64,000 bases of DNA, taken from contig CANTFL010000251.1 in assembly GCA_947650285.1 (NCBI GenBank), positions 372,001-436,000 of the forward strand, in the 5' to 3' direction. Source of the DNA: Hyaloperonospora brassicae (Eukaryota; Oomycota; Peronosporomycetes; Peronosporales; Peronosporaceae). Shown one piece after another: positions 58-28,958 of this stretch (position 1 is the stretch's first letter; each line of letters starts with the position of its first letter). The notes under the pieces were generated by a model. That model had not been told where the DNA came from and made no database searches. It worked only from the letters and a program-made list of their open reading frames with translations. Both the position numbers and the translations under genes were made by a program.

Positions 58-456
58 CGAAGGATTAATTATACTCCCATTATTGTTCTGACTGGGGTTA
101 CTCTCGCCAATATACCAGATACTGACATTGGCTATGACGACGACGTCGTTCCAAAAGTCCATCCACATACAACTGATGGTCCCCTTGATCACCGAGCAGC
201 GTCGGTGAAGGTAGATGTATCTAGGGAGGAGCATGAGAAGCTACATCTCGAAGTAAATTGTCCCCCCGAGACCGTGGGTAAGACCCAGAGTACGCTTGAC
301 ACGATGCAAACTCGCCTTCAGAAGTTAAGGTAGGGTCTTACACGGATAAAGGCTCATCTTGACACCCTCGACCGGATTCAGCAGCCGATTGCCTGGCCAA
401 TTGTTGCGGTGCAAGCGCCTCCAAGTTCACGTGGGACGGATCCCGATACAGCTTAA
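58..456 (+). pseudogene. Possible antisense coiled-coil ORF remnant of a Ty3 element
   Basis: One plus-strand frame is open from 58 to a TAG at 331-333 and continues to a TAA at 454-456. The part around 230-390 reads as charged, heptad-like sequence (residues such as REEHEKLHLEV and LDTMQTRLQKL). It runs tail to tail into the minus-strand integrase remnant that ends at 427, overlapping it by about 30 nt. This is the same layout as the antisense ORF of element 2 (21495-23099). I saw no sequence similarity strong enough to prove homology. It may be a chance open frame in decayed repeat DNA. Confidence 0.3.
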
Positions 457-1796: not shown

Positions 1797-1807
1797 AGTC
1801 TGGCCTG

Positions 1808-3623
1808 TGTGGTAAAGTCACTAATTAAATTAAATGATGGGACGTGGATCGGTGGCCACCCAGTTAAGGTGTCACTTACAGGTGGAAAATGAGGCCATGG
1901 GACCTGGCGATCGAATGAAGAGATGGAAACTGATCTCAATGGGAACCGGCGATCTGGTCCAACTGTCACCAAACCGATGGATACGGATCGACCTGAGACG
2001 GAGCGATCTGGTACAAGCCGACAAATAGAACGATTACCATGGAGCGATCTGGGACAAGTATCTGGTACAAGGATCTGAAACCAGGTGATGTGATATGACT
2101 CGGTGACGAAGGTGTAACATCCTGCAGATAGGTGATGCTCTCTACGGGTCTCCCAAAGGGAGTACTGATTTAGGTTAATTATGGCCCGATCTGGAAGTGG
2201 GGATGTTTGTGGGAGTCCGTGGGACCGTTGTAAGAGCTGTGGATGGTCCCATTGAGCAGATAAACTCTTGGTGATGGCATCGGAGTATGCACAATGAACG
2301 GAATAACATATATGGCCGTATTGCACTATGTCGATCCTCAACTATCTCGAATTGGGCATCAGATCGGTCATGTTCCCCACTGATTATGGATATATCGCTG
2401 ATGAGACTTTTGGATCATGTCAGACATGCTTGGGGAAGGTCCGTGAGTGATGTCTCAAAAGTTCATATCGAAAGAGCCGGTGGAAGCCGGTCGAATTGAC
2501 GTCGCAAAGCGGATTTGGACACATTCCGCATTTGGATACAATTTTGGACTTTTCGGTACCAAAAGTGGGCATTTGGTACCGTATGTGGAATTTGGTCTCG
2601 TTTGGTGTCTAGGTACGATATCGGGAGTATTGGCGCTATCTTTGGAGTACAGGTCACGAAATTTCGACACGTGTTCAAGGGGACGGTCAAGCTTAAAGGT
2701 GATATCGACTTGGAGAGTAACCAATGGTTGGGAATAGGCTTAATGATAGGTTGGCTATTAATTTGGTTGGATAACAAACAGACTTGAAGTCTACTTCTTC
2801 TGCTCACGACGCACGTTCTCCTCCCATCTTCCTCGGGCAGGATTGATTTGGCTTCCCCGGAGGGTCAAGGCACGCGTGTTACAGGGACACAGAATACCGA
2901 TCTTGAGTTGTTGGCAAAGATCGAGAAGAGCGATCTCGGGATATCTGGCCCGGATCGATCAAGTACTCACACTCAACTCAACTGCTAGGGTAGCAGCCAC
3001 ACAACAAAGGAAAAGGAAAAGGATTTTGGACACAAGATTGTGAGACGGCTCAAGCGGTCAGAAGATCTGGACAGGGAGTTCAAGACAATACCGAGCAAGA
3101 TCGAAGCGATCTACCGGAAATATCGGCGTGTTTCATTTTGGCGAAACCAAGAACCGATCTGTCTATATTGCGCACTTCCGGCAAGATCGGCCGATCCCGA
3201 GACTAGATCGGACCGATTCCAACGCAAGATCGACGCAAGACTATTATTTGATGAGTGAAGATTTCCGCACAGCGAAGGCCCCGATCCCGAAGACGAATCG
3301 GGATCGGTGTGATTCAAGATCGAGATCGCGACATCTCCAAATAGAGATCGCCGCGACTCAAGATCAGGATCGCAGAACCCCTGTTCGTGGTGTGAAGATT
3401 TCCGCACCGGAAGCGAACGCTCATCCCCACACCCTCAGCGAGATCGACATCTCCCAAGGACATTACGAAGAGCTCAAGCCAGCCCAACCGACGGGTACAC
3501 AAGGTGAGCACAAGGTTATACGGTAAGGCACGGATCGGAGTACCCCCTCCGTGAGTCGGCAAGTCTGGGAAAGTGGAAGATCGACATTCACTAAAGCAAT
3601 TTTGTGAGATCGACTTCACCACA
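1808..3623 (+). repeat. Element 1 5' LTR
   Basis: The 1,816-bp LTR starts TGTGGTAAAGTC and ends GACTTCACCACA. It pairs with 14509-16304. From about 2276 to 3575 the two copies differ at only a handful of positions at a constant offset of 12,681. The first 470 bp, in contrast, differ by many substitutions and indels (roughly a quarter of positions by eye). The open frames inside it appear in both LTRs and are probably non-coding. Confidence 0.93.
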
Positions 3624-6096
3624 ATGGTGCGCACGCCCGGATCTTCTGAGGCCTCTGTATTTTACCGTGAGTCCACTGGCGAAGATGTCAAGATCAAGCA
3701 AGAACCTGGGATTGAAGTGTCAGCGACAGAGGGATCGACGCAGACACGTAGAAGCACAAGATCTTCAGATCATCAGAGTTTTGGGAGGGGCTCTAATGGA
3801 ATGAAAAGGGAAGCGGAAGATCGAGAGATCGATCTGGAAGATAAACCTCAATTCCCTCCTAGGGCCCTTTCAGGGGTCACCGCAAAATGCTCTGCAAAGA
3901 GCGATCTGCTGGATGAAAATCCAAAGGCGAAAGCCAAACCCTACCTCCTCGTTGACAGATCTCCTGACCTCAAGCTGAGGAACACGATCACGAGATCGAC
4001 CACATCTGAACGACCCACGACGAGATCAATGGGATCGGACGTCAAAGATCGCCAAATCGGCAGAACCGTGCAATCGAAGATCGGAGTCAAAGAGGAATAC
4101 TATGAAACACCAGATAAGATCGGGATTCAGAAGACGGAATATAACCCAGTGAAGATCGCGTTCAGAGAGAAGAAGAAGACGAATGAAGCGCGGGAACGTG
4201 CGAAATGGCAATACTATTATGGCCATTTGAAGACACTATTCAAGACAGATCCAATGTTCAAGATATTAAGGCCCAAGTTGATTTGTCCTCTGGATAAGCC
4301 GATCTCGGTCCCACCTCCTGGGACCAACAAAGTCGACGAGATCAATTTGATTTTGCAGATGTTGGACGACATGGGTGTCTGCCCTAACGCTTTTGATGGA
4401 GATGAACGGCTGAGTTGCAGCTTGGAACTGTTGAAGAACGCGGCGAATGAGTTTGTGGAGATCATGATAATGCTGGTGGGCAAAGCCAATACTCCTGAAG
4501 ACAAGATCGGGACACCCTCGGACTCACTCCGGAAACACCCCGCGGGATCGCCCCGTTACGCCTCGGATGACTCTGAGAGCGAGTCCGATGGATTCATCAG
4601 CAAATTCGTCGGATGTCTCTTGGACCATCGGGTAGTACGTTTATAAAGAACAAGATCGGGCAAGCCAAGATCGACGCCGTTAAAGGACGAGCCAAGGGCG
4701 ACATGTTACTGAGATCGGCCGGTACCCGTACTGGGCTGGACGATCAAGAAGAAAGCGATCTAAGTAGGCACTTCAATGCAGCCATGAAGAAGTACGAGGC
4801 GGATCAATGCACAGCTCAGCGAATGAATCGACAGCCAAACCGCCACCCAGATCGCCGTACCTTTCTCTGACCTTCGCACGAAAGCCATGACATGCCGGAT
4901 GTGGAGATGGAATCGGTGGAGTCGGACACTTATCAACAGATCCACCATGGGGCGGAATACGACCCGGATGATTTATGGATGCCCGAACCACGAATCCCTC
5001 ACGTAGCCGCGACCGGTGTGACTACCGGAGGGGGAAGCATCACGCAGAGGATCAGAATCTCAGCGATTTCTGAACTGAAAGAATTCTCAGGGAAGGATCG
5101 GGAAGAAGATAAAGCACGAACCTGGATCGGCAAAGTGAAGTCAGCGATCATCCGGGATCAAGCACCGGACGAAGAGAGATGTCTGGTTTTCGGTGATCTC
5201 ATGGTGGGCCCAACCCGATGCTGGTACCGACAGCTGAGTAGATCGACGAGATTCAATTAGAAAGAATTGATGAACAGTTTTCTTGTGGAATATGCGGGAC
5301 ACGGGATGTCCGCGAGCCGGCAATATTACCAAGCAAAGAAACGATCGAAGGAAGATCCTTTGCAGTACCTATATCGGCTTAATGTGATGGGACTGCAGGC
5401 GAAGATACCGGTAATGTTGGATTGCCAGCTGCGCGCAAGGAACATGTCAACCATTTCATTGACATCTTGGACGACCCCGATCTGTCCAATCAATTGCTAC
5501 TGCTGAATATAGAAAACGCAGATGCCATGAAAAAGACACTGCATGGATATCAACAAGGGAGATCGCGTCAGGGTAAAGTGATGATGGGATCGTCCAAGTT
5601 CAGGTAGAAGGGAACGCCGGGTCCAGCGCTGTCTAAGCCTGCACGAGCGGTGAGGATGTTCCATACCGAGGACGTCAGCATCGAGTCAGGATCGGACACG
5701 TACGGATCAGATTTGGAAGATCGATTGAGATCGGTCCACGTGGCTGCTAGTACGGATCGGCACCCATCCCCCAATGACGTTACGGCAAACGCGAGATCGG
5801 TCAACCCGAACACTCGTCGAGATTACCAAGATCTCAATATTTTATCGAAGCCGTGTACTCATTGCGGATCGACCAAGCATGGAGATCTCGGTTGCTGGAA
5901 GCGACTCACTTGTCAGAAGTGTGGGCGTAAAGGACACCCCTAGGACAGTTGTTTTTTCGTGTGTCGTGCCTGCGGTGAGATGCATGACCCGGGGAAGTGT
6001 CCCATGGAGGAGTTCTACACTATGATCCGCCAGTGGTACGTCCCAAACAAGCATGCGGGGATGCTGCCAGAGAAGGCCGAGAAGATGTTAAACTAG
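3624..6096 (+). pseudogene. Element 1 gag, broken
   Basis: Gag is spread over several frames: 3624-4646, 4613-4870, 4892-5260, 5267-5506, 5422-5607 and 5650-6096. The N-terminal third is charged, disordered and rich in Arg-Ser-Thr. A Ty3-type capsid region lies around 5060-5260 (ISELKEFSGKDREEDKARTW, then a GPTRCWYRQL patch) and continues to about 5600. Near 5857-6003 are zinc knuckles: CTHCGSTKHGDLGC (CX2CX4HX4C), a second CX2CX4HX4C interrupted by a TAG at 5941-5943, and a variant CX2CX3HX4C. The ATG directly after the LTR is the likely original start, since the open frame upstream of it lies within the LTR. At least four breaks make this copy non-functional. Confidence 0.8.
3625..3642 (+). 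promoter_or_regulatory. Putative tRNA primer-binding site of element 1
   Basis: One base after the LTR end the sequence reads TGGTGCGCACGCCCGG. The TGG at this spacing is what a PBS pairing with a tRNA 3' CCA end requires. I could not assign the tRNA. The site overlaps an ATG at 3624 that is in frame with gag. Confidence 0.5.
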
Positions 6097-14508: not shown

Positions 14509-16304
14509 TGTGGTGAAGTCACTAATCAAAATTTGTACGAGGATCGGTGGCTACACATTTGGGACGCCACTTACTGGTGGAAAATGAGGCCATGGGACCT
14601 GGCGATCCAATAAGGAGACGGAAGGCGATCTAAACGGGATCGGCGATCCGATTCAACTGTCGTCAGAATGATGGGTATGGAACGATCTGAGACGGGGTGA
14701 TATGGGACAAGACGACAAATAGAACGATTACCATGGAGCGATCTGGTACAAGGATCTGAGATCAGGTGACGTGATGTGACTCTGTGGCGAAGGTGTAACA
14801 TCCTGCAGACCGGTGATGCTCTCTACGGGTCTCCCAAAGGGAGTACTGATTTAGGTTAATTATGGCCCGATCTGGAAGTGGGGATGTTTGTGGGGGTCCG
14901 TGGGACCGTTGTGAGAACTGTGGATGATCCCATTGTGCGGATAAACCCGTGAGGATGGCATCGGAGTATGCACAATGAACGGAATAACATATATGGCCGT
15001 ATTGCACTATGTCGATCCTCAACTATCTCGAATTGGGCATCAGATCGGTCATGTTCCCCACTGATTATGGATATATCGCTGATGAGACTTTTGGATCATG
15101 TCAGACATGCTTGGGGAAGGTCCGTGAGTGATGTCTCAAAAGTTCATATCGAAAGAGCCGGTGGAAGCCGGTCGAATTGACGTCGCAAAGCGGATTTGGA
15201 CACATTCCGCATTTGGATACAATTTTGGACTTTTCGGTACCAAAAGTGGGCATTTGGTACCGTATTTGGAATTTGGTCTCGTTTGGTGTCTAGGTACGAT
15301 ATCGGGAGTATTGGCGCTATCTTTGGAGTACAGGTCACGAAATTTCGACGCGTGTTCAAGGGGACGGTCAAGCTTAAAGGTGATATCGACTTGGAGAGTA
15401 ACCAATGGTTGGGAATAGGCTTAATGATAGGTTGGCTATTAATTTGGTTGGATAACAAACAGACTTGAAGTCTACTTCTTCTGCTCACGACGCACGTTCT
15501 CCTCCCATCTTCCTCGGGCAGGATTGATTTGGCTTCCCCGGAGGGTCAAGGCACGCGTGTTACAGGGACACAGAATACCGATCTTGAGTTGTTGGCAAAG
15601 ATCGAGAAGAGCGATCTCGGGATATCTGGCCCGGATCGATCAAGTACTCACACTCAACTCAACTGCTAGGGTAGCAGCCACACAACAAAGGAAAAGGAAA
15701 AGGATTTTGGACACAAGATTGTGAGACGGCTCAAGCGGTCAGAAGATCTGGACAGGGCGTTCAAGACAATACCGAGCAAGATCGAAGCGATCTACCGGAA
15801 ATATCGGCGTGTTTCATTTTGGCGAAACCAAGAACCGATCTGTCTATATTGCGCACTTCCGGCAAGATCGGCCGATCCCGAGACTAGATCGGACCGATTC
15901 CAACGCAAGATCGACGCAAGACTATTATTTGATGAGTGAAGATTTCCGCACAGCGAAGGCCCCGATCCCGAAGACGAATCGAGATCGGTGTGATTCAAGA
16001 TCGAGATCGCGACATCTCCAAATAGAGATCGCCGCGACTCAAGATCAGGATCGCAGAACCCCTGTTCGTGGTGTGAAGATTTCCGCACCGGAAGCGAACG
16101 CTCATCCCCACACCCTCAGCGAGATCGACATCTCCCAAGGACATTACGAAGAGCTCAAGCCAGCCCAACCGACGGGTACACAAGGTGAGCACAAGGTTAT
16201 ACGGTAAGGCACGGATCGGAGTACCCCCTCCGTGAGTCGGCAAGTCTGGGAAAGTGGAAGATCGACACTCACTAAATTAATTTTGTGAGATCGACTTCAC
16301 CACA
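14509..16304 (+). repeat. Element 1 3' LTR
   Basis: The 1,796-bp LTR starts TGTGGTGAAGTC and ends GACTTCACCACA, a perfect 12-bp terminal inverted repeat. It is 20 bp shorter than the 5' copy because of indels confined to the first 300 bp. It is followed directly by GTGCTACCAGG, which is the reverse complement of the primer-binding site of the element 2 family. Confidence 0.93.
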
Positions 16305-16315
16305 GTGCTACCAGG

Positions 16316-16727
16316 TGTAACGGGGCAAACGCTTACGTGAGTTATGGCAAGGGTATCGTGCACCGACAAGCATACACGAGGCGACCGAGGAAGCGGTAGG
16401 TAAGACAGAGGCAACACTGTTTTTGGGAAAAGTAGAGCTGTTATATTAATAAATTAAGTCTTCAAACTACTGTCTCTTCGTTTGACTTAATTCAATTATA
16501 CTAATATAACTGCATGTATGACGACGTCTACTCACCACTCATTGCGCGCGTCTTACGGCGATTGGTGGGTTGATATCGTCAAGATATCAACCAATGAGTA
16601 GACTCTTTGGTCGACCCATCAATGTCACCACTATTGGTGATATTTTTAAAAGGATATCCATCTTTATATTCTTTATTGTCATTATCTCTCAAATGACAAT
16701 TTCCATGTAACGGGCTGCCCCGTTACA
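16316..16727 (-). repeat. LTR of element 2 family (divergent subfamily), probably a 5' LTR remnant
   Basis: The 412-bp LTR has the same 12-bp terminal inverted repeat as element 2 (TGTAACGGGGCA / TGCCCCGTTACA) and long shared blocks such as TTAATTCAATTATACTAATA. By eye it is about 80 percent similar, with an insertion near 16420. The 11 bp at 16305-16315 equal the primer-binding region found inside the 5' LTR of element 2. So this is the 5' end of a minus-strand element cut off by element 1, rather than a clean solo LTR. Several LTR hairpins are kept, two with paired base changes. Confidence 0.85.
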
Positions 16728-18816
16728 TCGAAGGTGTCTGGGCGACTTGCGGTCAGTCGGGGGTACAGTTGGTATGGCGCACCTCACAAATTGCACGCTC
16801 TCGTGCTTGGCACAGTGTAGCCATCTGTGGGGGCGTCGCTGCGCAGAGGACAACAAACAGAGGGTCGTTTTTCGCCATCGCTTTTTCTGGCCTGGACAGC
16901 AGATGTGCGGCCAGTCGGTCGTGCGATGTTGTCCTGATTGTCCAATCGCTGCGAGTTGGTGGCCCTGGCTGGACGGTCCCGCAAGCATCTTGACAATAAA
17001 GTCCAGCAAGTTTGGCGGACCTTGTGGCAAACACTGGCTGCAGTACAGTGCTGTAGGTAGACTGCATCGATGGTCAGTGTCACCGAAGCGACGACAAGAG
17101 GTGGGAGGCCGCTTGTATCGCAAGACTACAGTAGTTTGGTACCAATACGCTTTGACAGCTTACCTCGGACCTGTTGCGACAGGACTTGCTCTTCCAATCC
17201 GTATGGAAGATTGAGCACCGAAGTAGCGGCTCTTGGAAGATGCGTGAACGTCACACTGATACGATAGTGTTTAGCTCTTCAAGTGGTACCCTTTCAGATG
17301 GGTAATAAGCCCTGGACTCGGCGTTGCCACTTGTGCAATCATCTTGTGTCGATAGCATACTCTAGAACCCGACAATCCTTGAGATAAGGAAGGCAAATGT
17401 TAAGCGTGCTGTACATCAGATTAAGTAGAACAATGAGTTTATGGGCCGTACTCACGGCGCCACTCTTTGTTGATCCATCTGCAGTATCGTACTCTGGACA
17501 TTGCAACATGCTCCGCAGAGCACGAGCTATTTTTACGGAATTGTGCTACTTCTTCGGGAACGGTTGATTCGATGCAAGCGCTAGCTTGCGGGGCTTTCGC
17601 TTTTGGCTAGCACCTAACATGTAGCTGCTGCTAAACGACCGTTTGGCTCGCTTCATGTTGTTTCTCAGCGTAATGTGGCCTTTGCGAGAAAGCATGGCGA
17701 GCCCGGAAAGAGCTCGGCTTCTACCTCGTTCGGATTGCTTAATCTAGCTGGCATGCCGGTCCATTCACTGAGCACGAACAATTTGCTGTTCGGTCGTCCC
17801 TTAGGGGCTTCTTCTGTCCCATGCATGCATTATGGCTCGGTCATTGACACACCTGTCTGTCGCGGAGTGTTGCAATGCACTCGATGTTTTGAGCCAGCAG
17901 AATGAACGAGGGAGGACGAGGACGAGGAGGAAATAGGGCAGAAGGAGACATACGCAAATGTCCGGACAGTATCTCTATATATTCGTCCGTACACAAAAGC
18001 CAGTCGTAACATCTGGTGCTGGACTGGGCGTCGCTTGTTTATGCAGACAGCGCAACCGGCTGACTTTCTCCAGCGGCTTCTTGCGTCGTTCCTCCTAACT
18101 GCAACACGGCTGTGTCTGCCCATGACATCGCTGGATCATGTATTCTCCATCGATGCCGGGTTTACGCACCGAGCGCGCTGAGAAAGAGATGGGTCTTTCG
18201 AGCTGTCGACTCTGTCGGATCAGAAAAAAGGCTTTTCTCTTCGTTGCCAGCACAGACGGATCTCAGCAGACACAGGAATTGTGGGCACTTTCTGACCTCT
18301 CAGTGGACACGAAGCCCTTGCGGGAAGGGTTCGGTTTTGGTGGACCAGTGTCTTTTGCGTTCTGCAACCATTGCGTTCGAGGTCGTGCTAGGATAGAACA
18401 TGAGTTTGACTCTCAAACACACATAGTCCGTCAGTGACATTTTCCAGCGGTGGAAATGGAGAAGCTTGCGTACTAGAACTCTGGGTGTAGCGTACAGCTC
18501 GTCTAGCCCAGCTCATGCAAGCGATAGCCACGTTGTAGAGTAAAATAGTATGTAACCCTCGATCGCACCCACTCTGCTTCTCACTCGTACAGAAAAGCAA
18601 GCCACCACTGTGACAACAAGAGTCGCGGCTTGCCTTCTGATGCAGTCAGCGACCAGAGATTTGAGGAGCATGCGACACGGTTTTGAGTGTTGGCTTCCTG
18701 CAATACCGGGAGTAGCATTAAAAAGAGCCCTCGGACCGCGGTTCAAGAGGCGGTGGATACGCGGGCCACACTTTTATCGTAGCTCTACGCTGTGACTTGG
18801 TTGAACTCCAGTCTGT
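16728..18816. other. Gene-poor spacer, nothing recognised
   Basis: About 2.1 kb between the LTR remnant and the effector candidate. Open frames up to 155 codons exist on both strands, but none shows domain-like composition, signal peptide or motif. I see no RNA gene or repeat family here. Confidence 0.6.
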
Positions 18817-18831
18817 GCCATTCCGAATTTT
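18817..18831 (+). promoter_or_regulatory. Oomycete initiator-like core promoter of the effector candidate
   Basis: GCCATTCCGAATTTT fits the oomycete Inr consensus (TCATTYYNCAWTTT) at all but two positions and lies 39-53 bp upstream of the ATG at 18870. If transcription starts here, the earlier in-frame ATG at 18792 is excluded, so this site decides the start of the gene. Confidence 0.6.
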
Positions 18832-18869
18832 GCACCCTCCTTCGAGCACCGACTGAACGGTCCTCATCC

Positions 18870-20039
18870 ATGCGCTTCGACTTCATTGCGGTCGTGGCGG
18901 TAACGGCAATCGTAGTCCATCTCAAGATTCTGCGCGACGTGTGCGGTCTCCCCACCACGTCTGTGGATGGCCGAGGACCGGCAAGTGACCACAACGACGT
19001 CGTCTTCGTGCACAACAGCTTCATCGATCTTGGCGGGAACAACAGCGAAGAGCGTTTGCCCTCGGCAAAAGTTGGACAGGATATACTTTGGGGGCATTTG
19101 AACACGATTTCTTACGACGACTTACCACCGATATTAAGCTCTGGTGAGGATTTCCTAAAGCGCGGATACAACTTGGTCGGAAAGGCGTCAACCCGAGGCA
19201 TTCGGGGTTTTCTTTTGCGTATCCAAAGGCGTTATACAACATGGTATAAGTCGGAGGGTAAGATCCGCCGTATGCTGGACAAATTAATGGAATTGGCGGA
19301 GCATACCAACATTGGCGCTCGCCCCGTTGCATCCAACTTGCTCGATAGCATATTGATGATGTATGTGAAGGATAAGGTCCCGATCGACGAGTTCACTCGG
19401 TTCCTGCAGTTGTTCTACACTACTTATCTTGTGCACGACGTCGATTTTCTAAGGATCAATGTACTGCGTCGTTATATCAAATTCTTCAACGAGCAGGAAG
19501 GGACCGACCATACGCTAATCGAGACGCTGACAGAGAATCATGGAGCTCGTCATCAGCTTGCAACTGCTCTCGAGATCGCGATCGATACAGGAATACGCCC
19601 TGATGATGCTACACAACTGCGCGAGCAAATGATGGAAGGCTGGAAGAAGGAAGGTCTGAATTCCGCCGACGTGTTCACAAAGCTGAAACTTGATGACAGG
19701 ATCTTAACTATGTTTGGTGTGCCTAAATTCAAGGCATATGAGCGCTACGCGAGGGAATTCATGAAGGAAGACTTGCTGGATGCTTTGGTGCAACGCTTGG
19801 GGGGTGAGAATAGAGTTGCAGAGTATGCTATGAACATGTTCGTAGAAAGCAAGGATCCGCGGGCACAATGGTATATAAACGCGTTGCTGCGGAAGTGGAA
19901 GGATGTCGAGAGGATCGATCCGGCCAATTTGATCGAGCTCAAGTTTACAAATGTCAAACGGAGTAGCTTCCGTTATGAGTGGTCGAGAGATATCGCAGCC
20001 GTCTACGCCAAGTTCTTCAGGGATGGCATTCCCCTCTAA
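18870..20039 (+). CDS. Secreted EER / WY-domain effector candidate
   Basis: A 389-residue protein without introns. Residues 1-20 (MRFDFIAVVAVTAIV...) look like a signal peptide. An SEER motif follows at 59-62, but no canonical RXLR precedes it. The rest is alpha-helical and carries WY/LWY-type features: W258 in WKKEGLNSADVFTKLKLDD, then YERYAREF around residues 290-297, then a second unit with W343 before ERIDPANLIELKF. Proteins of this type are secreted by oomycetes and act in host plant cells; the target here cannot be read from sequence. The start at 18870 is preferred over the in-frame ATG at 18792 because the initiator lies between them and the signal peptide begins here. The gene stands alone between retroelements, typical of fast-evolving effector loci. 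Confidence 0.75.
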   Translation: MRFDFIAVVAVTAIVVHLKILRDVCGLPTTSVDGRGPASDHNDVVFVHNSFIDLGGNNSEERLPSAKVGQDILWGHLNTISYDDLPPILSSGEDFLKRGYNLVGKASTRGIRGFLLRIQRRYTTWYKSEGKIRRMLDKLMELAEHTNIGARPVASNLLDSILMMYVKDKVPIDEFTRFLQLFYTTYLVHDVDFLRINVLRRYIKFFNEQEGTDHTLIETLTENHGARHQLATALEIAIDTGIRPDDATQLREQMMEGWKKEGLNSADVFTKLKLDDRILTMFGVPKFKAYERYAREFMKEDLLDALVQRLGGENRVAEYAMNMFVESKDPRAQWYINALLRKWKDVERIDPANLIELKFTNVKRSSFRYEWSRDIAAVYAKFFRDGIPL

Positions 20040-20968: not shown

Positions 20969-20973
20969 GTTGC
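20969..20973. repeat. Target-site duplication of element 2 (left copy, GTTGC)
   Basis: GTTGC here directly precedes the LTR and is repeated at 28954-28958 directly after the other LTR. A 5-bp duplication is normal for Ty3-type integration. Confidence 0.9.
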
Positions 20974-21363
20974 TGTAACGGGGCACACCCTTGCGTAACT
21001 TAACGCAAGGGATTTGGGTGCCCCGACGGACGTACACGTGGCGAGCGAGGAAGCGTAGGTAGGGTAAAAGTAGAACTGTTATATTAATAAATTAAGTCTT
21101 TAAACTACTGTCTCTTCGTTTGACTTAATTCAATTATACTAATATAACTGCATGTATGGTGACGTCTCGTCACCACTCATTGCGCGCGTCTTGCGGCGAT
21201 TGGTGGGTTGATATCATCACGATATCAACCAATGAACAGACCCTTCTGGTCGACCCTTCAATATCACCGCTTCGGTGATATTGTTTAAAGAATATCCATC
21301 TTTATATTCTTTATTGTCACTTTCCTTAAGTGACAATATTATGTAACGGGCTGCCCCGTTACA
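20974..21363 (-). repeat. Element 2 3' LTR
   Basis: 390 bp with the terminal inverted repeat TGTAACGGGGCA / TGCCCCGTTACA. It contains several near-perfect hairpins: arms at 21206-21215/21221-21230, 21260-21269/21273-21282 and 21313-21322/21328-21337. Confidence 0.95.
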
Positions 21364-21378
21364 TCACCCCCCCCTTAA
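21364..21378 (-). other. Polypurine tract of element 2
   Basis: Read on the minus strand, AAGGGGGGGGTGA directly precedes the 3' LTR. The run of eight G is the expected plus-strand primer. Confidence 0.7.
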
Positions 21379-21494
21379 CTGATAGTCACCGTATGACTAT
21401 CGAAATATGGAGGCCACCCGTTGGCCACCATTGGGACAGGGAGTACTTGTTTGGTCCGTTCCACTCACTTTCCGCTTGACCTCGCATAGCTAAC

Positions 21495-23099
21495 ATGTCT
21501 ATGCGAGGTGACTCAAGACCCACACAGCCTGGTGCTGTGCAAGCCTCTGCGGCAGACGCTTCGTCGTCTGCCGCCCCTTCTTCGCCTGCAGCAACAGGTG
21601 CTGCAGGTGCACGCGGTATCACGCCGCGTGCGTATGATGACCCCGATGTGGAGGTCATCTACTCTGGCGAGTCAGACGTGTCTGACTCGGGCAATGCTCC
21701 AGAGGCGTCTCGCTCACCGGCGACGCCTCAGTATTCGCCAAGGCCACTGCCGAACGAACGGACTCGTGAGTTGCAACACAGTCTGTTCGGCAGTGATGAC
21801 GAATCTGATGATGAGTATGTTTGCTCATCACCGCAATCAGCTCGTGCTCCTTCGCACGAGCGACTTGACGATGGTGCAACCCATCGTCATACTGACAGCC
21901 GTGGTACCAACAAAGGTACCACTGTGAAGCGTGATGAGCTGAAGCCGTGGCGTTTGCCCGAACGGCTCATCAATAGCCTGTCTCACGAGACAGGCCAACA
22001 CCATCGAATACCCTTATTCGATGCAACCGAGCTTCACGGCTTGAGTCCCAGCGCGAAGAACTTTCGCGCTGAAGAAGACTTTTATCTCGATGTCTTCCTT
22101 AGACATCGATGGTACAATAGCAACCAAAAGCGTGACAAAACATCGCTTTTGGCTGCGTGGAACGCGTTCGTCCAAAACGTCAAGAATTTTGGACGAGAGG
22201 GGTGGCTCAAGAAACTTGAGGCAACACGCCTCAGGTTCGAACGGCGAACGCCAACCGGTGCTAGGTACCGGTTGCATTGTTTATCGAGTGAGGCAGGCAT
22301 TCCTTGCCTCACATGGGGAGACCCTTGTGCGAGTTGTGTTGACAACTCGCAGCGTGCACATAGGGATGTGTACTCCCTAAATTCGCCCTGGGGAAGGGCA
22401 CATCTCTCGGAGGAGATGCGTGACGCGATTGCAAACTTGCAATCCGTCTACAAGCGCCTAGGGCGCGTGTTTACCGATGGGCCACAGGACTCATCGGATG
22501 GGTCTCGTCATACTGGTGGACGAGACCTTCAACATCCATTAACAGCTGAGAGCGGGGCTCCCAGCTGTTCCAAGAGGGTGGATACCCCCGCCACTGGACG
22601 AGGTAGCTCGTCCTTGATCCTGAATCGTCACGGTGATTCAAGATACGCTCCACTAGAAAGCGTTGATCACCGTGAGCATCCACCAAAGGATGTGGTGGAG
22701 GAGGAAAGACCTCCTCCAGAACCCCAGGCCCACCATCTCGACCCTTACGAGATGGATCGCGCAATCGTTGAATTGCGCGATGATTTGACGCACGAGCGCG
22801 ACCGACGCTACGCTTTGACTGATACCGTGCGGAAGAACCGCAAGGATCACGAGGCTGATCGGGCGAGAGATCGCGCCGATTATGCCACGGCGCAGCTTCA
22901 GGTCGAGCGGGATGTCCGCTCCCTTTTCGGCGAGCTGGCGACAGCTCGCGGAGAGATAACTCGGTTGAATACCGAGGTATCATATCTGCGCGACCAGACG
23001 GATCGTCTGGAGCGCGAACGCAAGAACTTGATGGATGTTCTTGAACGTGGGGGCTATCTTCATCGGAAGAAGAAGGCCCGTACTGACAGTACGACCTAA
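21495..23099 (+). CDS. Element 2 antisense ORF: Zn-motif and coiled-coil accessory protein
   Basis: An intact 534-residue frame opposite to gag-pol, starting 131 bp inside the 3' LTR. Residues 1-130 are Ala/Ser- and acid-rich and probably disordered. Residues about 150-320 look folded, with many aromatic and charged positions (FLRHRWYNSNQKRDKTSLLA, AWNAFVQNV). This part includes a CX8CX6CX2C pattern (CLSSEAGIPC ... CASC) that could bind zinc. A Pro/Ser-rich linker follows. Residues about 410-525 form a strong coiled coil (ELATARGEITRLNTEVSYLR, DRLERERKN), ending in the basic patch HRKKKAR. Its last 629 nt overlap the chromodomain end of pol on the other strand. The function is unknown: a regulator, a nucleic-acid-binding protein and a structural partner of Gag are all possible. 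An LTR-derived antisense promoter would be needed. Confidence 0.72.
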   Translation: MSMRGDSRPTQPGAVQASAADASSSAAPSSPAATGAAGARGITPRAYDDPDVEVIYSGESDVSDSGNAPEASRSPATPQYSPRPLPNERTRELQHSLFGSDDESDDEYVCSSPQSARAPSHERLDDGATHRHTDSRGTNKGTTVKRDELKPWRLPERLINSLSHETGQHHRIPLFDATELHGLSPSAKNFRAEEDFYLDVFLRHRWYNSNQKRDKTSLLAAWNAFVQNVKNFGREGWLKKLEATRLRFERRTPTGARYRLHCLSSEAGIPCLTWGDPCASCVDNSQRAHRDVYSLNSPWGRAHLSEEMRDAIANLQSVYKRLGRVFTDGPQDSSDGSRHTGGRDLQHPLTAESGAPSCSKRVDTPATGRGSSSLILNRHGDSRYAPLESVDHREHPPKDVVEEERPPPEPQAHHLDPYEMDRAIVELRDDLTHERDRRYALTDTVRKNRKDHEADRARDRADYATAQLQVERDVRSLFGELATARGEITRLNTEVSYLRDQTDRLERERKNLMDVLERGGYLHRKKKARTDSTT

Positions 23100-23703
23100 G
23101 CCTCCCCACGTAAAACGTAGGATGCGTGCGCATCCTACGTGGCAATTCGAGTGTGTATGCATTGCCCTTGCGATGCAACACTCGAAATGGCCCAATGTAT
23201 TTCGGCAGTAGTTTACTACTGCCGACACTAGTGACTGCATGTCCAGGTAGGTTTACCGTAGACAGTAGTACTAGGTCATTAACCTTAAATGAAAGAACAT
23301 TTGCTCTTCCATTCTTGTCTGCGTTCCGTTTCTGACGGTCCACCGCATTTGCGATGGAGTCCTGAACGAAACGGACTACCGCTTCTCGAGTCAGCAGGAA
23401 GTTCTCTGCTGACCCTTTGTTTTGTTTAGCAGTGCGCTGCGTGCGCACTGCTAAGAGATTGCTCTCTTCTTCAGCGAGGTTGTCTTCTTCCTCGCTGGCA
23501 TAATCGTTGGCGATGCTGAATATACCAGCATCGTCATCATCATCCGAATCAATAATAGCGTCTTCGCTATTATTGAGATGATCTTCTTCATCGATGTCGA
23601 CTTGATCGACATCGGCATCATACGTGACGACGTTTGCGTCGACACGTGATGAGCAAGAGCCAAAATGGTTTTTGCTCGAGCGAGTCCCTCCCCCCTTATC
23701 CAA
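22471..23703 (-). CDS. Element 2 pol tail: integrase C-terminal region, linker and chromodomain
   Basis: This frame continues pol after the break at the G6 run. It begins with GGGTRSS and an acidic stretch, then the integrase C-terminal module (LPKYIGPFRVLHRKGNAYTL, RRMRTHPTF), a roughly 190-residue disordered basic linker, and a chromodomain: RFLVERILNHRDDSGSRTSY, then LVQWRGYPPSWNSWEPRSQL. The WRGY and W.SWEP core is complete, so histone-tail targeting is plausible. It is in the -1 frame relative to upstream pol. No codon start near 23703 is convincing (the apparent start is TTG), so this is a pol part rather than a separate gene. Confidence 0.85.
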   Translation of the reverse strand: MDKGGGTRSSKNHFGSCSSRVDANVVTYDADVDQVDIDEEDHLNNSEDAIIDSDDDDDAGIFSIANDYASEEEDNLAEEESNLLAVRTQRTAKQNKGSAENFLLTREAVVRFVQDSIANAVDRQKRNADKNGRANVLSFKVNDLVLLSTVNLPGHAVTSVGSSKLLPKYIGPFRVLHRKGNAYTLELPRRMRTHPTFYVGRLRSYCQYGPSSSDEDSPHVQEHPSSSCVRAPDDPSGRADMIPRYSTELSLRELSPARRKGSGHPARPEAAPWHNRRDLSPDQPRDPCGSSARYQSKRSVGRARASNHRAIQRLRDPSRKGRDGGPGVLEEVFPPPPHPLVDAHGDQRFLVERILNHRDDSGSRTSYLVQWRGYPPSWNSWEPRSQLLMDVEGLVHQYDETHPMSPVAHR

Positions 23704-26700
23704 GAGTCACACTCTAGAAGGGTGGGCACACGTGGATGGCGTAGGCCATTCACGTAAAACGGTGTGTGCTGTGTTGAAGCATGCACCGAATTATTGATGG
23801 CGAATTCCACCATGGGTAGGAATTCGCTCCAACTCGGAAACGAGTGGACATATCCTCGAAGAATCTCTTCGAGGACACGGTTCGCACGTTCCGTCTGACC
23901 ATCTGTTTCTGGATGGTCAGAAGTGGACATCTTCAATCGTGTTCCGAGAGTACGGAACACGGTTTGCCAAAATTCCGCCGTGAACCGAGGGTCACGGTCG
24001 GATACGAGTTCACGGGGTAACCCGTGGAGTCTAAAGACCGTGTCTAGAAAGACACGAGCACAACCTTGAGCCTTGATTGACTCAGGGACAGCAGCAAGAT
24101 GGACCATCTTGCTGAATCGGTCCACAAACACAAGAATACCATTATTCTTGTGAGCGTCTTCGGGAAACCCGAAGACGAAGTCCATTGAAACGGACTCCCA
24201 GCACTCTGTCGGAACAGGCAGAGGCTGCAATGGCGCACGGGATGAAGGACTAGGCTTCACCCGTTGACATACTTCGCAAGCACGGATGTACTTGCGAACA
24301 AACTGATACTGGCGGGGCCAGTAAAAGTCGCGACTTACCGTGAGGTAAGTCTTTTCTCTACCACGATGGCCGCTTGTTGGGGCATCGTGACACTCATACA
24401 TGATGCGCAATCGCAAATCATGATGAGCGGGTACGACGACACGAGGCGTGTCGTCGGCAACTGCTGTATAGTACAGCAATCCGTTGCGTGTACTATACCG
24501 ATCCGATGAGGATCGGTACAAAGCCGGTAAATCCCTCATGGATTTACTGGATGGATTCACCAGATGATCCATCAATCGCAGAAGATCCTTATCTTCCGCG
24601 TATGCCTTTCGTACGTCGTCAAGTAAACTTGACGACGGGACACTGACTGACAGTGTCGCAACAGTGGGCTTGTCCTCACTGTTGGATTGCGCGTCCGGCT
24701 CGAAATCGGGCCGGCGCGAAAGAGCATCCGCGACGACATTGAGTCGTCCCGGTTTATACTCCACGGAGAAGTTATACTCCGCGAAGAAAGACAGCCACCT
24801 CGCCATTCTTTGCGAGAGGTGTGGGCTGTTTACGGCCGTGCGTAATGACGCATGGTCCGTGTAGACAACAAACGGTCTATCTCCCAAGAGATAGACGCGA
24901 AATTTAGCCAGTGCGTATTTCATGGCAAGGAGTTCCTTGTCATGCACTGGGTAATTACGCTCAGCTGCTTGCAGCTGACGCGATTGATAACAGATGACGC
25001 GCTCCGCGCCATCTGCATCGAACTGCATTAACGCACAGCCGATTGCGAAATCGCTGGCGTCGCAGACCACATGAAATGGTCTGTCCTGATCTGCAATCGC
25101 CAAGATCGGCGATTGCATCAAGCTTTGCTTGATACCTTCAAAGGAACGCTGGCACTCAGCGTTCCATGACCACTTGACATTTTTCTTGAGCAAGCAAGAA
25201 AGATGTACCGTCATCTCGGCGTAGTTGCGCGAGTACTTGTGCAAGTACGCCGCTAGTCCAAGGAACTTTCGAAGTCCCTTGACATCGACTGGCACTGGCC
25301 AGTCGGTGATCGCCTTGATCTTTTCGGGATCAGGGCGTACGCCGTGTTTCCCCACGATGCACCCAAGAAGTGGTATTTCGCTAGCCGCGAATATACACTT
25401 CTTGAGGTTGGCGTACAACTTATGCTTGCGCATAAGTTGAAGAACCTGACGAACGTGAGTTCTGTGAACTTCAACGTCCGTCTTCCCGTCCATAGCCCGG
25501 CTATGGACGAACACATCGTCGAAGTAACTCGGTGCGAAGTCTCGCACCGGTCTCAACAGATTTGTTACACATCTGTTGAATGTTGCAGGGGCATTACTCA
25601 GCCCCTGTGGCATCACTAGCCACTCCCACAGCATCCCGCTGGGGGTACTCACTGCCGTGAACGGGACGTCCCGTTCACGCATCAGGATCTGATAGAATCC
25701 ATCCATCAGATCCATGGACGAAAAGATGGTACTCTTTGACATACCATCTATGATTACGTCCTTCCTCGGTATCGGCGTCTGAGCCGGTACCGTTGCAGCA
25801 TTCAACTTGTTGAATGCGTGCACTATCCGCCACCCTCCTGTGGCCTTTCGCACACAGAAGGTCGGAGAGCTGTGAGGGGATGTTGATTCCCTCACATGGC
25901 CCGCTGCTAAGCGATCGGCAAAGAACTTGTCGATCGCTATCACTTGTTCACGAGGCAGTGGCCACTGCTTCATGACACAGTATTTCGAGCCCGGTTTGAG
26001 CTCGATCTCGTGTCGAGTGCCTTTGTCCTTAGGCAACTCGCAAGGTACGGATTCAGGGAACACATCCCTGAATTCGATCAAATCCTTATACAAAGGATTT
26101 GCCTGAAGTGACTCCCAGGATTGGGACGCGTATCGCTCAATCCGAGTCTTCTCATCGAGGACACTTTCGTCCATCGATGAGCTGCTGAGAACCCGTTCGT
26201 TCTCAGCAAATACTGTTGCCGACCGAATGTCGGTCACATACTCGTCCTCTGTGACGAGTACGCAGATCTGCTTGACTTTGCCACTACGCAGATCACGCAA
26301 GAACCGTTTCGGTTCTAGCGTTGGCAACTGAGTTATCTCCGAAGTCAACTTCGGAGGCACAATCAGATCAAGCGTATAAGCGCCTACGCTTGATCCGTCA
26401 TTAACCAAGACGTTCAACGTCTCGGTTTCTTCCTGGGATCTTGCTTCCACAGGTTGCTGAGGGCCTGATCCCTCAGCAAGCAACTCTTGAGGAACTCCTT
26501 CCTCAAGTACGTGGGGACTTATTCCCTCGACGTCTTCCGACTGTGGCTGTGCAACCACAGTCAGGAACCGATCCTCTACGGTCGACTCTCCAGTCGACCT
26601 AGGATTTTCATGTTGCCCCTTGGGGGCAACAGTTTTCTTTCTTCTAAGATGCTGCCCGCTAGGCATGCATCCATGTCCCGGTCCACTCGACTTATTCGAG

Positions 26701-27385
26701 TGGTGGACCTTCGGCGCAGCCTGTACTTCTGTACAGCCGCCGGGAGCTTGCTCCACAGTGTAGTGATCAACTACACTGTGACCTTGTGCAGTCGTGCTAA
26801 CGACCGTACCGCAAGTGAGGCCATCGCACTCACTCGCAGAACATCCACACGCTTGTGGACGCTCCAAGATGTTCATCAGATGGCCATCTGATGAACAAGC
26901 AGCAGGCATCTTCACGGATCGATGCTGCCAGCTCACCCTTGGCTCGTATTTTCTGAGCCAAGGTAATCCCAGGATGACATCAAATTTGTCATCCAGATCT
27001 AGTACGATGAAATCATCATCGTACTGCTCGCCCTCTAACGTGTAGTGGATTCCTACTACACGTTTCTCAACGGTTATCGATGCGCCTGTTGCAAGGCGCA
27101 CCGTCATCCTTGTGAGGGGAATGTCGCGCTCAACGAACTTGAGCCTACGACCCTCTAGTGACTGGCGACGAACAAAGTTGTTCGACGCCCCACAGTCTAC
27201 TAGGGCACGAAGCGACAAGTCATTTGTCGCTTCCAACTTCAAGGTGATGAGCGAAACGTCATCACCAGGTGCAGAGACACACAATGATTGTGTATCTGGA
27301 GCAACTTTCGTCAAGAGGTTTGCAAATTCTCTTGAGGTTGCTGGATCAGTAGGGCGCTCCGCCCCTACTGACCCCGACCATTTTT
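23451..27385 (-). CDS. Element 2 Pol polyprotein (protease, RT, RNase H, integrase)
   Basis: The frame is open from the slippery site at 27386-27380 through 1,287 codons downstream of TTG 27314. The protease signature is ALVDCGASNNFVRR (DCGA in place of DSGA) at about 27200, with VILGLPWL later. RT has LDELMDGF-type (SSMDLMDGFYQILM) and YFDDVFVHS motifs at about 25510. RNase H shows FHVVCDASDFAIGCALMQ. Integrase has the HHCC finger (HDAPTSGHRG ... CEVCQRV), then SMDFVFGF, SDRDPRFTAEFW and the Glu-bearing NRVLEEIL. All key catalytic residues seem present. At the G6 run near 23697 the frame is lost and the final 80 codons are out-of-frame sequence; the true continuation is the tail at 23703-22471. 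No ATG lies near the 5' end, which fits expression as a Gag-Pol fusion. Confidence 0.93.
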
Positions 27386-27386
27386 T
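27346..27386 (-). promoter_or_regulatory. Probable -1 ribosomal frameshift signal between gag and pol
   Basis: On the minus strand the gag frame reads TCA AAA AAT, giving the heptamer A AAA AAT (27386-27380), a canonical X XXY YYZ slippery site. Eight nt downstream is a hairpin with 9-bp arms (27371-27363 and 27354-27346) and an 8-nt loop. The gag stop TAG (27367-27365) lies inside the first arm. Pol is in the -1 frame and is open from the slip point onward. Confidence 0.75.
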
Positions 27387-28519
27387 GATGGTCCGTCTCG
27401 CTGTTGCGGCTTCGCAACAGCGCTGGACCCACGCCCATTGCCCTTTCTGGCGAATGGTCGTCCATTTCGCTCAGTACTGTTTGGTACTGGGCGCGGAGCA
27501 CTACACTCGTATGCGTAGTGCCCTAACTTCTGACAGCGATTGCACCTCTGCAATCGCTTGTTGCTTGTAGAGCGAGGTCTCTCGCTCTCAACATAACAGA
27601 GGTCCATTGGTTCTGGACCTCCGATCTCTTGTCGTCTCGGTGGACGGTAAGAGTTTGAGCTAGCATGAGCCTGTCTCATGCTAAAGTCTTCCTGTTCCGC
27701 GGCTGATATCGCTTCTTCAAGCGTATTCAGCTCAAGGCGGAACAGGTGGCTCCTGACGGGCCCTTCTGCGAGCCCTTGCATGAACACCGTAATCAACGTG
27801 TGTTCATGAACTGGGTTTGCAGTTATACTACTCGCAAGGAGTCGTATATGTTGTGCGTAAGCGTGCACATCACGCTTACCCTGCTTGAGTTTCAGGAGCT
27901 CTGAACGAGCCCTGAACTCAGCACGTGGCGGCTCAAACGTTTGTCTGAGCCGGGACTTGAAGTCATCTAGCGACCTAAACACGTTTGGGTCGCTACTCTC
28001 GAGTCCCAGGGACCAAGTTTTGGCACGCCCTGCCAAGTGGGTCTGAGCAAATGTGAGTTTCATTTGCTCATCTTCGACGCGACGAGCCCTTAGGGCTCTG
28101 TCGAGTTCGACAAACCATAGTAACAGGGAGTCCTCCGGGACTCCACTGTACTTGGAGATGTCGACTTTCATCACTTCGGGACGACGCGCATGCGCCGTCC
28201 CGCCCACAGCAGCATGGAATTGCTGCTGTCTCAACAGCTCCGTCTGTTGAGCACCGAGTTCTCTCAACTGCTCGGCCTGTTGAGAGCCTTGCTGGTGAAG
28301 CAAGGCTACTTTCTCCCTCTCGAGAGCAAGTTCATTGTGAATGAACTTGGCGATAGCAGCATGTTGTTGGTCTCTGTCTAGAGACTCCAACATGGTGCTG
28401 ACGACGAGTTCGCCTACGGTAGAACTCATTCGTTCTACCGCACCCCATTCGATGTCACTCAAATGGGTAAACCCTTCACGCGTGGCGTGAAAGGTGTCTT
28501 CTTCATCCAACATGTTCAT
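27365..28519 (-). CDS. Element 2 Gag
   Basis: 384 residues from a clear ATG. Residues about 60-120 form a Gln- and Leu-rich coiled coil. Residues about 125-290 are a Ty3-type capsid domain (SLLLWFVELDRALRA, HLAGRAKTWSL, FKSRLRQTFEPP, FMQGLAEGPVRSHLF). A basic region follows with one CX2CX4HX4C zinc knuckle (CNRCQKLGHYAYEC) for RNA binding. It assembles the virus-like particle that houses reverse transcription. There are no lesions. It ends in a stop lying inside the frameshift hairpin. Confidence 0.93.
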   Translation of the reverse strand: MNMLDEEDTFHATREGFTHLSDIEWGAVERMSSTVGELVVSTMLESLDRDQQHAAIAKFIHNELALEREKVALLHQQGSQQAEQLRELGAQQTELLRQQQFHAAVGGTAHARRPEVMKVDISKYSGVPEDSLLLWFVELDRALRARRVEDEQMKLTFAQTHLAGRAKTWSLGLESSDPNVFRSLDDFKSRLRQTFEPPRAEFRARSELLKLKQGKRDVHAYAQHIRLLASSITANPVHEHTLITVFMQGLAEGPVRSHLFRLELNTLEEAISAAEQEDFSMRQAHASSNSYRPPRRQEIGGPEPMDLCYVESERPRSTSNKRLQRCNRCQKLGHYAYECSAPRPVPNSTERNGRPFARKGNGRGSSAVAKPQQRDGPSKNGRGQ

Positions 28520-28547
28520 GTTGGATGATGTGGTCCTTGGAAGGACT

Positions 28548-28561
28548 ACAAAGTGCTACCA
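28548..28561 (-). promoter_or_regulatory. Primer-binding site of element 2
   Basis: Two bases after the 5' LTR the minus strand reads TGGTAGCACTTTG. The first eight bases, TGGTAGCA, equal those of initiator-Met tRNA primer sites in many retroelements; the rest diverges. The same bases survive at 16305-16313. Confidence 0.6.
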
Positions 28562-28563
28562 GG

Positions 28564-28953
28564 TGTAACGGGGCACACCCTTGCGTAACTTAACGCAAGG
28601 GATTTGGGTGCCCCGACGGACGTACACGTGGCGAGCGAGGAAGCGTAGGTAGGGTAAAAGTAGAACTGTTATATTAATAAATTAAGTCTTTAAACTACTG
28701 TCTCTTCGTTTGACTTAATTCAATTATACTAATATAACTGCATGTATGGTGACGTCTCGTCACCACTCATTGCGCGCGTCTTGCGGCGATTGGTGGGTTG
28801 ATATCATCACGATATCAACCAATGAACAGACCCTTCTGGTCGACCCTTCAATATCACCGCTTCGGTGATATTGTTTAAAGAATATCCATCTTTATATTCT
28901 TTATTGTCACTTTCCTTAAGTGACAATATTATGTAACGGGCTGCCCCGTTACA
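28564..28953 (-). repeat. Element 2 5' LTR
   Basis: 390 bp, read as identical to 20974-21363. It is followed by the second GTTGC target copy at 28954-28958. Confidence 0.95.
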
Positions 28954-28958
28954 GTTGC

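Follow-up and report, generated by a model that had tools for sequence, protein, structure and literature searches.

A chromodomain Ty3/gypsy retrotransposon of Hyaloperonospora brassicae with much of its sequence, genes included, made up of short perfect hairpins apparently kept intact by selection

Much of element 2, a retrotransposon at positions 20974–28953 of a 64,000-nucleotide stretch of Hyaloperonospora brassicae DNA (contig CANTFL010000251.1; the window), consists, genes included, of short perfect hairpins, with stems apparently kept intact by selection. The abundance of these hairpins, to which an earlier note on this DNA drew attention, is confirmed and is stronger than that note stated. 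If the interpretation is correct, synonymous, and even amino-acid, choice across a whole mobile element would be subordinate to local hairpins on both strands, and such a constraint would, to our knowledge, be far stronger than the structural constraint acting on RNA viruses.

Architecture and coding content of element 2

Element 2 is a Ty3/gypsy LTR retrotransposon of the chromovirus type, on the minus strand. Its LTRs are of the TG...CA form and are flanked by a target-site duplication, the domain order gag-PR-RT-RNaseH-integrase is present, and there is a C-terminal chromodomain (PF00385, E 1.2e-13). The features are:

20969..20973: target-site duplication GTTGC, copy 1
20974..21363, minus strand: 3' LTR of 390 bp, with no difference from the 5' LTR
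21364..21376, minus strand: probable polypurine tract AAGGGGGGGGTGA, read from the sequence, adjoining the 3' LTR
21495..23099, plus strand: antisense ORF of 534 aa, itself hairpin-rich, for which the database has 12 relatives
21795..21900: hypervariable stretch, differing in sequence between subfamilies, with stems mostly still formed (13-bp arms in L028)
22471..23703, minus strand: overlapping pol 3' ORF, 410 aa, in a different frame, with Tf2-like SH3 and chromodomain
23451..27314, minus strand: pol ORF, 1287 aa, with aspartyl protease, RT, RNase H, H2C2 and integrase core
27365..28519, minus strand: gag ORF, 384 aa, with Retrotrans_gag, Ty3_capsid and a zinc knuckle (below cut-off)
28549..28561, minus strand: probable primer binding site TGGTAGCACTTTG, read from the sequence, 2 nt inside the 5' LTR
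28564..28953, minus strand: 5' LTR, start TGTAACGGGG, end CCCCGTTACA
28954..28958: target-site duplication GTTGC, copy 2

The two-ORF layout of pol and the overlapping pol 3' ORF is also open in locus L062. The claim that proteins stay intact on both strands holds for the window's copy, but in only eight of the 30 copies described below did the antisense frame lack stops and gaps across 21600–23096, the others having stops or indels relative to the window's copy.

The closest named relative covering the whole of pol, among 120 listed, was from Peronospora effusa (92%). Element 2 shares LTRs, the gag-PR-RT-RH-IN order, a chromodomain and a 5-bp target duplication with oomycete chromodomain Ty3/gypsy elements, but stands apart in its antisense ORF with relatives and, probably, in its perfect-hairpin organisation, the elements of other species being compared as proteins. 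Plant Retand elements also have an antisense coding region between pol and the 3' LTR, but the domain of their antisense protein is TRP28, unlike that of element 2 (PMC11963269); the main text of that paper contained neither 'hairpin' nor 'secondary structure', and that of a study of inverted repeats across genomes (PMC13155455) neither 'retrotransposon' nor 'oomycete'. Titles and abstract openings of the open-licence literature yielded no report of such a hairpin-built element, and a search for relatives in IMG/VR gave one pattern match and no confirmed case.

Excess of perfect inverted repeats

Perfect inverted repeats with loops of 0–15 nt were counted in 20974–28953 and in 100 dinucleotide shuffles. 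With arms of at least 5, 6, 7, 8, 9, 10, 11 and 12 bp, the element contained 317, 198, 147, 116, 78, 44, 17 and 6 repeats, respectively, versus shuffle means of 102.7, 25.8, 6.6, 1.7, 0.43, 0.11, 0.02 and 0, and no shuffle matched the observed count at any arm length. All nine arm pairs listed in the earlier note are perfect reverse complements. Examples, and the longest perfect repeat found, are:

23115..23140: hairpin, 12-bp arms, loop 2
23202..23225: hairpin, 11-bp arms, loop 2
24092..24114: hairpin, 11-bp arms, loop 1
24614..24637: hairpin, 11-bp arms, loop 2
26870..26897: the longest, with 14-bp arms and loop 0

In 23.1–24.7 kb there were 63 repeats with arms of 5 bp or more, versus 21.3 expected; the earlier note had estimated 45–50. 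With 200 codon permutations per ORF and arms of at least 8 bp, gag had 15 repeats versus 0.55 (maximum 3), pol 51 versus 1.4 (maximum 7) and the antisense ORF 24 versus 0.78 (maximum 4), such that the observed numbers lie far above both kinds of shuffle; the 3' LTR had seven repeats with arms of at least 8 bp, six of them with arms of at least 9 bp. The suggestion that synonymous choice is bent to fit the hairpins was borne out by these codon shuffles and by the phase of the pol hairpins, which avoid pairing codon positions 1–2 and 3–3 (6/50); in gag, this phase was found in 3/15 hairpins with arms of at least 8 bp and 10/29 with arms of at least 6 bp.

The dinucleotide and codon shuffles rule out chance or base composition as the source of the hairpins. 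An assembly artefact is ruled out by their presence in 29/29 other near copies, and local duplication by the lack of an excess of direct repeats (6 in element 2, 49 in an 8-kb host stretch). No regular spacing of hairpins was evident along the element, and a tally of all complementary pairs against their distance was nearly flat, the signal residing in perfect runs.

Among the loci sampled, the excess was absent from host sequence and from 30 other reverse-transcriptase loci, and present in two related families, L061/L067 (weaker) and L065/L069 (5-bp stems, 3-nt loops). In the element 2 family, arms are typically about 8–11 bp and loops 3–8 nt, in LTRs, gag, pol and the antisense gene alike; L065 stems mostly end at 5–6 bp. 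The L065 family also has an antisense ORF (448 aa), with no BLASTP similarity between its product and that of element 2 (E 0.13).

Hairpin geometry and folding of the two strands

Loops in element 2 are most frequent at 4–6 nt and zero-loop repeats are scarce (2/116), which suggests physical hairpins rather than duplex palindromes. Arm ends are abrupt, with pairing past them at chance. Folding z-scores, which the earlier note had proposed computing, averaged −6.8 (sense) and −7.5 (antisense) in 200-nt RNA windows, versus +0.2 and +0.5 for the host control, and 95% of the 39 sense windows fell below −3. In RNA viruses, genome-scale ordered RNA structure (GORS) likewise consists of whole-genome folding energies far below those of order-shuffled controls. 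Element 2 has such energies along its length, but differs from GORS in being about 50% more stable than its shuffles, in its discrete perfect stems, equal strands and lack of wobble preference, and in being an integrated DNA element.

Structure might be selected in the sense genomic RNA only, either to compact the RNA or to provide many scattered packaging signals that bind Gag, the Gag of each family determining stem size. Hairpins cover everything in the genomic RNA, and RNA folding gave z −14.2 across 951 nt. Stems and loops differ in size between families, as might be expected if a protein of the element recognised them, and on the sense strand the loops of element 2 are rich in A and in purines (P 8e-4). 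However, this loop bias was absent in L065 and L061, loop sequences were heterogeneous with no common sequence seen, and the antisense strand folds at least equally. Furthermore, G-U and A-C were about equally common in one-mismatch stems (72/59 in element 2, 63/66 in L063 and 54/60 in L064), and element 2 does not follow the RNA pairing rule, by which G-U would be accepted on the genomic strand. Sense-RNA structure alone therefore fits poorly, and we consider it unlikely. Dispersed packaging signals, the subject of PMC6281560, are similar in that many hairpins along a genome could recruit coat protein, but in element 2 no common loop sequence was seen and stems have no wobble preference. The 5' base of the closing pair in 116 L065 hairpins was C in 55, T in 34, G in 17 and A in 10; this bias is symmetric under reverse complement and thus uninformative about strand.

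Sequence variation in stems

We compared 4.6 kb per copy in 30 copies, including the window's own, which ranked highest among 40 hits to the window that were scored from 1980 first-look candidates; this choice biases them towards close copies. With shared and private variants as a proxy only for changes before and after insertion, 3/69 shared variants fell in stems (17.0 expected; as low in 0/4405 mask shifts) versus 32/126 private variants (30.9 expected, the background rate; Fisher 1.5e-4). By longest covering arm, there were 46 shared variants at 2159 sites with no arm of at least 4 bp, 6 at 841 sites (5–7 bp), 0 at 813 (8–10 bp) and 3 at 184 (at least 11 bp); the unfiltered union of hairpins gave a weaker depletion (17 at 1209 sites versus 67 at 2988). 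Stem conservation is purifying selection during retrotransposition, or escape from mutation there.

L064 stems were changed in element 2 at 1.3% of sites versus 7.9% elsewhere, and element 2 stems in L064 at 3.3% versus 7.6%. L061 sites were changed in L067 at 7.1% in stems, 38.6% in loops and 26.0% elsewhere, and L067 stems were not conserved in L061 (23.0% versus 24.9%). LTR stems were depleted of changes in L064 (5/118 versus 47/269) and L056 (6/98 versus 44/234), and not in L062 (3/118 versus 3/271), L063 (4/118 versus 5/271) or a related LTR within the window (17/118 versus 29/269):

16316..16727, minus strand: LTR related to that of element 2 (82.7% identical), with stems partly decayed and repeats at 16568, 16675 and 16705

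Stem-codon amino acids were not conserved relative to 13 related proteins chosen among 120 listed: in the closest, 16/142 stem codons were changed versus 57/547 others, and divergence was slightly higher for stem codons in 12/13 comparisons, which are non-independent and include one with P below 0.05. This tendency is consistent with mutation protection, in which paired bases would be spared reverse transcriptase error or damage in single-stranded intermediates, and chance stems would freeze and accumulate without selection. Protection would also account for depletion without compensation and for the normal rate of private variants, and the sense-strand excess of G>A over C>T (19 versus 9 shared, 35 versus 16 private) points to a degree of damage on minus-strand DNA while it is single-stranded. 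However, private G>A changes also occur within stems (10/38). Moreover, it can be reasoned that protection would extend to every pair gained at an end, and arms would then be expected to go on lengthening, yet their lengths drop at about 10–11 bp in element 2 and 5–6 bp in L065. We consider protection an improbable source of the hairpins.

Quasi-palindrome template-switch mutation yields short perfect inverted repeats. A generator of this type, in which reverse transcriptase snap-back copies one arm from the other without function, would fit the perfect arms and abrupt ends, and the reverse transcriptase of each family could set its geometry. Differences were confined to one arm in 4/11 hairpins broken between element 2 and L064, one of them (0,3) at a 12-bp stem with a loop of 5, and in 1/7 between L067 and L061; in the aligned rows, the 13-bp stem of L028 resembles one lengthened by a complementary 3-bp insertion, possibly templated. 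However, both arms differed in the other 7/11 and 6/7, rather than one arm having been changed by copying from the other, and the generator predicts coupled double changes, not depletion. Coupled changes affected 2/854 core pairs versus 1.8 in the random control, and in six LTRs 2/59 pairs covaried and 17 only broke; the covariation that the earlier note had proposed looking for was thus not in excess. The generator also leaves the 3/69 shared variants in stems unexplained, and we regard it as very unlikely. The predominance of differences on both arms and the scarcity of shared stem changes likewise distinguish element 2 from the products of template switching, the subject of PMC7202029. Of the two processes offered by the earlier note, selection is thus supported by the depletion of shared but not private variants, and arm copying has little support as the main process.

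A possible role for strand-symmetric folding

The lack of wobble preference and the equal strength on both strands make it more likely that the folded object is both strands than sense RNA alone. We therefore favour, at somewhat better than even confidence, strand-symmetric self-folding of the single-stranded forms of the element, under selection, with a putative function. The folded strands would be first-strand cDNA and antisense RNA, besides genomic RNA; given the antisense ORFs in both the element 2 family and that of L065, co-transcription of sense and antisense strands is plausible. Quick local self-folding would stop complementary single strands annealing together, and might thereby avoid double-stranded RNA feeding RNA silencing and RNA:cDNA tangles; it may also shield single strands within the particle. 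The depletion of shared changes would reflect purifying selection at every round of retrotransposition, with a probable threshold stem length above which further pairs add no benefit.

Element 2 would then be a member of a chromodomain Ty3/gypsy clade with at least three families in which short Watson-Crick hairpins follow one another along the genome, each family having its characteristic hairpin size (about 8–11 bp here, 5 bp with a 3-nt loop in L065). We propose tentatively, and short of even confidence, that this clade has a second whole-genome code laid over genes on both strands, with wobble-free hairpins, a family-specific stem length and pairs maintained by purifying selection; the most likely reason would be a need for local folding of both the RNA and its complement (cDNA or antisense RNA), to complete the life cycle or to escape silencing. 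If so, related families differing in stem size would provide natural replicates, and it would be directly testable by what means a retroelement whose genes lie in both sense and antisense orientation keeps from feeding RNA silencing.

Inverted repeats in the rest of the window

Between 32001 and 64000, all eight 4-kb tiles were near chance (largest z 1.9, arms of at least 5 bp, tile at 44001). Tiles 1–4000 and 16001–20000 were mildly high for arms of at least 5 bp (77 versus 51 and 72 versus 49); the former contains an exception, an LTR of element 1 in which 10-bp repeats lie at 2554 and 3281, and the latter another, the related LTR at 16316–16727. The other LTR of element 1 has a third 10-bp repeat at 15235. 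The statement that this pattern is missing from host genes and from element 1 is essentially right. An isolated 12-bp repeat lies at 31150.

Identity and coding capacity of element 2

Element 2, which lies on the minus strand, is of the Ty3/gypsy type. Its two LTRs of 390 bp are identical (ends TGTAACGGGG...CCCCGTTACA), and the target duplication GTTGC flanks it. The named pol relatives among the 120 listed of 2857 were from oomycetes, including Peronospora effusa (92%), Peronospora matthiolae (80%) and Phytophthora and Globisporangium (about 68-74%), which suggests a host resembling a downy mildew. The coding regions of element 2 are:

Minus strand: gag, and a separate ORF for aspartyl protease-RT-RNase H-integrase
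Overlapping ORF: Tf2-like SH3 domain and chromodomain, from domain matches
21495-23099, plus strand: antisense ORF, 534 aa

Hairpin excess and folding energy

The earlier note described element 2 as a chain of short hairpins, and the arm pairs that it gave were exact in 9 of 9 cases. Perfect inverted repeats with arms of at least 8 bp (loops of 0-15 nt) numbered 116, versus 1.7 in 100 dinucleotide shuffles, and those with arms of at least 10 bp numbered 44, versus 0.11. The former were fairly evenly distributed over the element (3-10 per 500 bp), and inverted-repeat counts in tiles outside it were near chance, save for a few exceptions including related LTR sequences. Shuffles by codon permutation, in which protein and codon usage stay unchanged, did not reproduce the hairpins of gag, pol or the antisense ORF, in agreement with the proposal that synonymous choice is bent to fit them. 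Loops were most often 4-6 nt long, and all but 2 of the 116 repeats had one, as expected for physical hairpins. Hairpin centres in pol shunned the codon phase pairing positions 1-2 and 3-3 (6/50); the counts for this phase in gag were mixed, at 3/15 (arms of at least 8 bp) and 10/29 (at least 6 bp).

The folding energy of element 2 had a mean z in 200-nt windows of -6.8 for the sense strand and -7.5 for the antisense strand. A 951-nt segment folded as RNA yielded -436 versus -284 kcal/mol (z -14.2) and its opposite strand, folded as DNA, -247 versus -131 (z -28.5), with a z of -0.47 for the host control. The sense/antisense means in 200-nt windows were -5.6/-6.5 for the diverged copy L064, and -2.3/-2.8 and -1.0/-1.4 for L065 and L061, which belong to related families; those for four other retroelement loci, L066 and host DNA lay between -0.7 and +0.5.

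Other copies and related families

All 30 near copies (30 fetched of 40 listed, one being the window's own) contained 59-65 arms of at least 8 bp per 4.6 kb, and the hairpins were also present in the diverged copies L062 (97%), L063 (95.9%), L064 (93.3%) and L068 (96.8%). L061 and L067 (58% and 61% aa identity to element 2; 75% DNA identity to each other) had a weaker excess, with 13 such arms versus 0.9 (4 kb) and 8 versus 0.3 (2 kb). The pattern was different in L065 (56% aa) and in L069 (54% aa), a close copy of L065. L065 had few arms of at least 8 bp (4 versus 1.6), and 52 repeats with arms of exactly 5 bp and 3-nt loops, versus 4 expected, evenly distributed over 7 kb; its pol contained 82 arms of at least 5 bp with loops of 3-6 nt, versus 18 in codon shuffles. 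L066 (26% aa) had no hairpin excess (1 arm of at least 8 bp versus 1.4 expected).

The RVT_1 loci L031-L060 (30 fetched of 150 listed) had at most 4 arms of at least 8 bp in 3.8 kb, and the six compared with the proteins of element 2 gave no match. Arms of 5 bp were mildly enriched in L048-L053 (z 1.9-3.1) and L056 (z 4.5), and L056 has its arms of at least 8 bp in an adjoining LTR that shares about 85% identity with the element 2 LTR.

A long antisense ORF was found at the same place in the element 2 family and in L065, and the two had no detectable sequence similarity:

L065:617-1963, plus strand: antisense ORF of the 5-bp-hairpin family, 448 aa

That of element 2 had 12 database relatives (32-84% identity), two of them from P. 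matthiolae. Its frame was free of stops and gaps over 21600-23096 in 8 of the 30 copies, the remainder having stops, or indels relative to the window's copy. Its C-terminal region resembles a leucine zipper (weak Pfam match, below the cut-off).

Variation in stems

Variants seen once in the 30 copies (private) served as a proxy for post-insertion changes, and those in at least two (shared) as a proxy for changes inherited via retrotransposition. With a stem mask of 1098 of 4465 sites, excluding the hypervariable 21790-21904, and expectations from mask shifts, 32 of 126 private variants fell in stems (30.9 expected), and 3 of 69 shared variants (17.0 expected; a count this low came from 0 of 4405 shifts), two of these three at the outermost stem pair. 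When 21790-21904 was included, the 57 hairpins each unbroken in 15 or more of the 30 copies had a single shared variant at their 1034 stem sites, versus 88 at 3203 other sites and 9 at 343 loop sites. Depletion was weaker with the unfiltered union of hairpins from any copy (17 at 1209 versus 67 at 2988). In the union set, 28 or more of the 30 copies had the hairpin intact at 58 of 67 centres; the other nine were arm-end extensions, hairpins in one or two copies, or in the hypervariable stretch, where stems were mostly still formed by differing sequences. By arm length, shared variants numbered 46 at 2159 sites without an arm, 6 at 841 (5-7 bp), 0 at 813 (8-10 bp) and 3 at 184 (at least 11 bp). 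The threshold-like stem lengths, the normal rate of private variants and the low number of shared changes in stems agree with purifying selection that acts on local hairpins in the element's life cycle. Protection from mutation could also explain the stem conservation.

Several results count against a simple reading of selection for structure. There was no excess of covariation, which was seen at 2 of 854 core pairs in four copies versus 1.8 in random pairs, and among six LTRs 40 pairs were invariant, 17 only broken and 2 covarying. LTR stem changes relative to element 2 were depleted in L064 (5/118 versus 47/269) and L056 (6/98 versus 44/234), and not in L062 (3/118 versus 3/271), L063 (4/118 versus 5/271) or the old LTR at 16316 (17/118 versus 29/269). 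Stem codons and other codons showed similar amino-acid divergence from a choice of 13 of the 120 listed relatives. From these results, stems seem to be preserved over short times and exchanged for others over long ones. L061 stems were conserved in L067, with 7.1% of sites changed, versus 26.0% for others and 38.6% for loops, and L067 stems were not conserved in L061, with 23.0% changed, versus 24.9% elsewhere; this asymmetry implies that hairpins are also gained or lost.

Folded strand and possible roles

Acceptance of G-U pairs would be expected if the sense RNA were the folded species. In 8-bp stems with one non-Watson-Crick pair, the G-U/A-C counts were 72/59 in element 2, 63/66 in L063 and 54/60 in L064; A-C exceeded G-U in 7-bp stems of L061 and L067 (33 versus 13), and 5-bp stems of L065 had 34 G-U and 26 A-C. 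All these counts come from overlapping windows and are non-independent. Sense-strand G>A changes outnumbered C>T (21614-26193, 30 copies) among shared (19 versus 9) and private variants (35 versus 16), perhaps through deamination of single-stranded minus-strand cDNA, and this excess may tilt the counts toward A-C. Antisense folding was no worse than sense folding, a symmetry that is consistent with both strands being folded. On the sense strand, A was enriched in the loops of element 2 (P 8e-4) and not in those of L065 and L061. In the role that we favour, self-folding would limit annealing of complementary strands and would shield single-stranded intermediates; the hairpins may instead serve packaging by Gag.

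Nothing comparable to this element was found in the titles and opening parts of abstracts of the literature searched. The nearest known kind is GORS, from which element 2 differs in that its wobble and strand tests are unlike ordinary sense-RNA structure.

Other features of the window

1808-3626 and 14509-16307: LTRs of element 1, a second retroelement, about 1.8 kb, 95% identical
63631-63929: tandem repeat, 75-bp unit
18792-20039, plus strand: ORF, 415 aa

The 415-aa ORF gave no Pfam match at E 0.01. Close to its beginning it has, as judged by eye, a hydrophobic stretch like a signal peptide, and its product is possibly a secreted effector.
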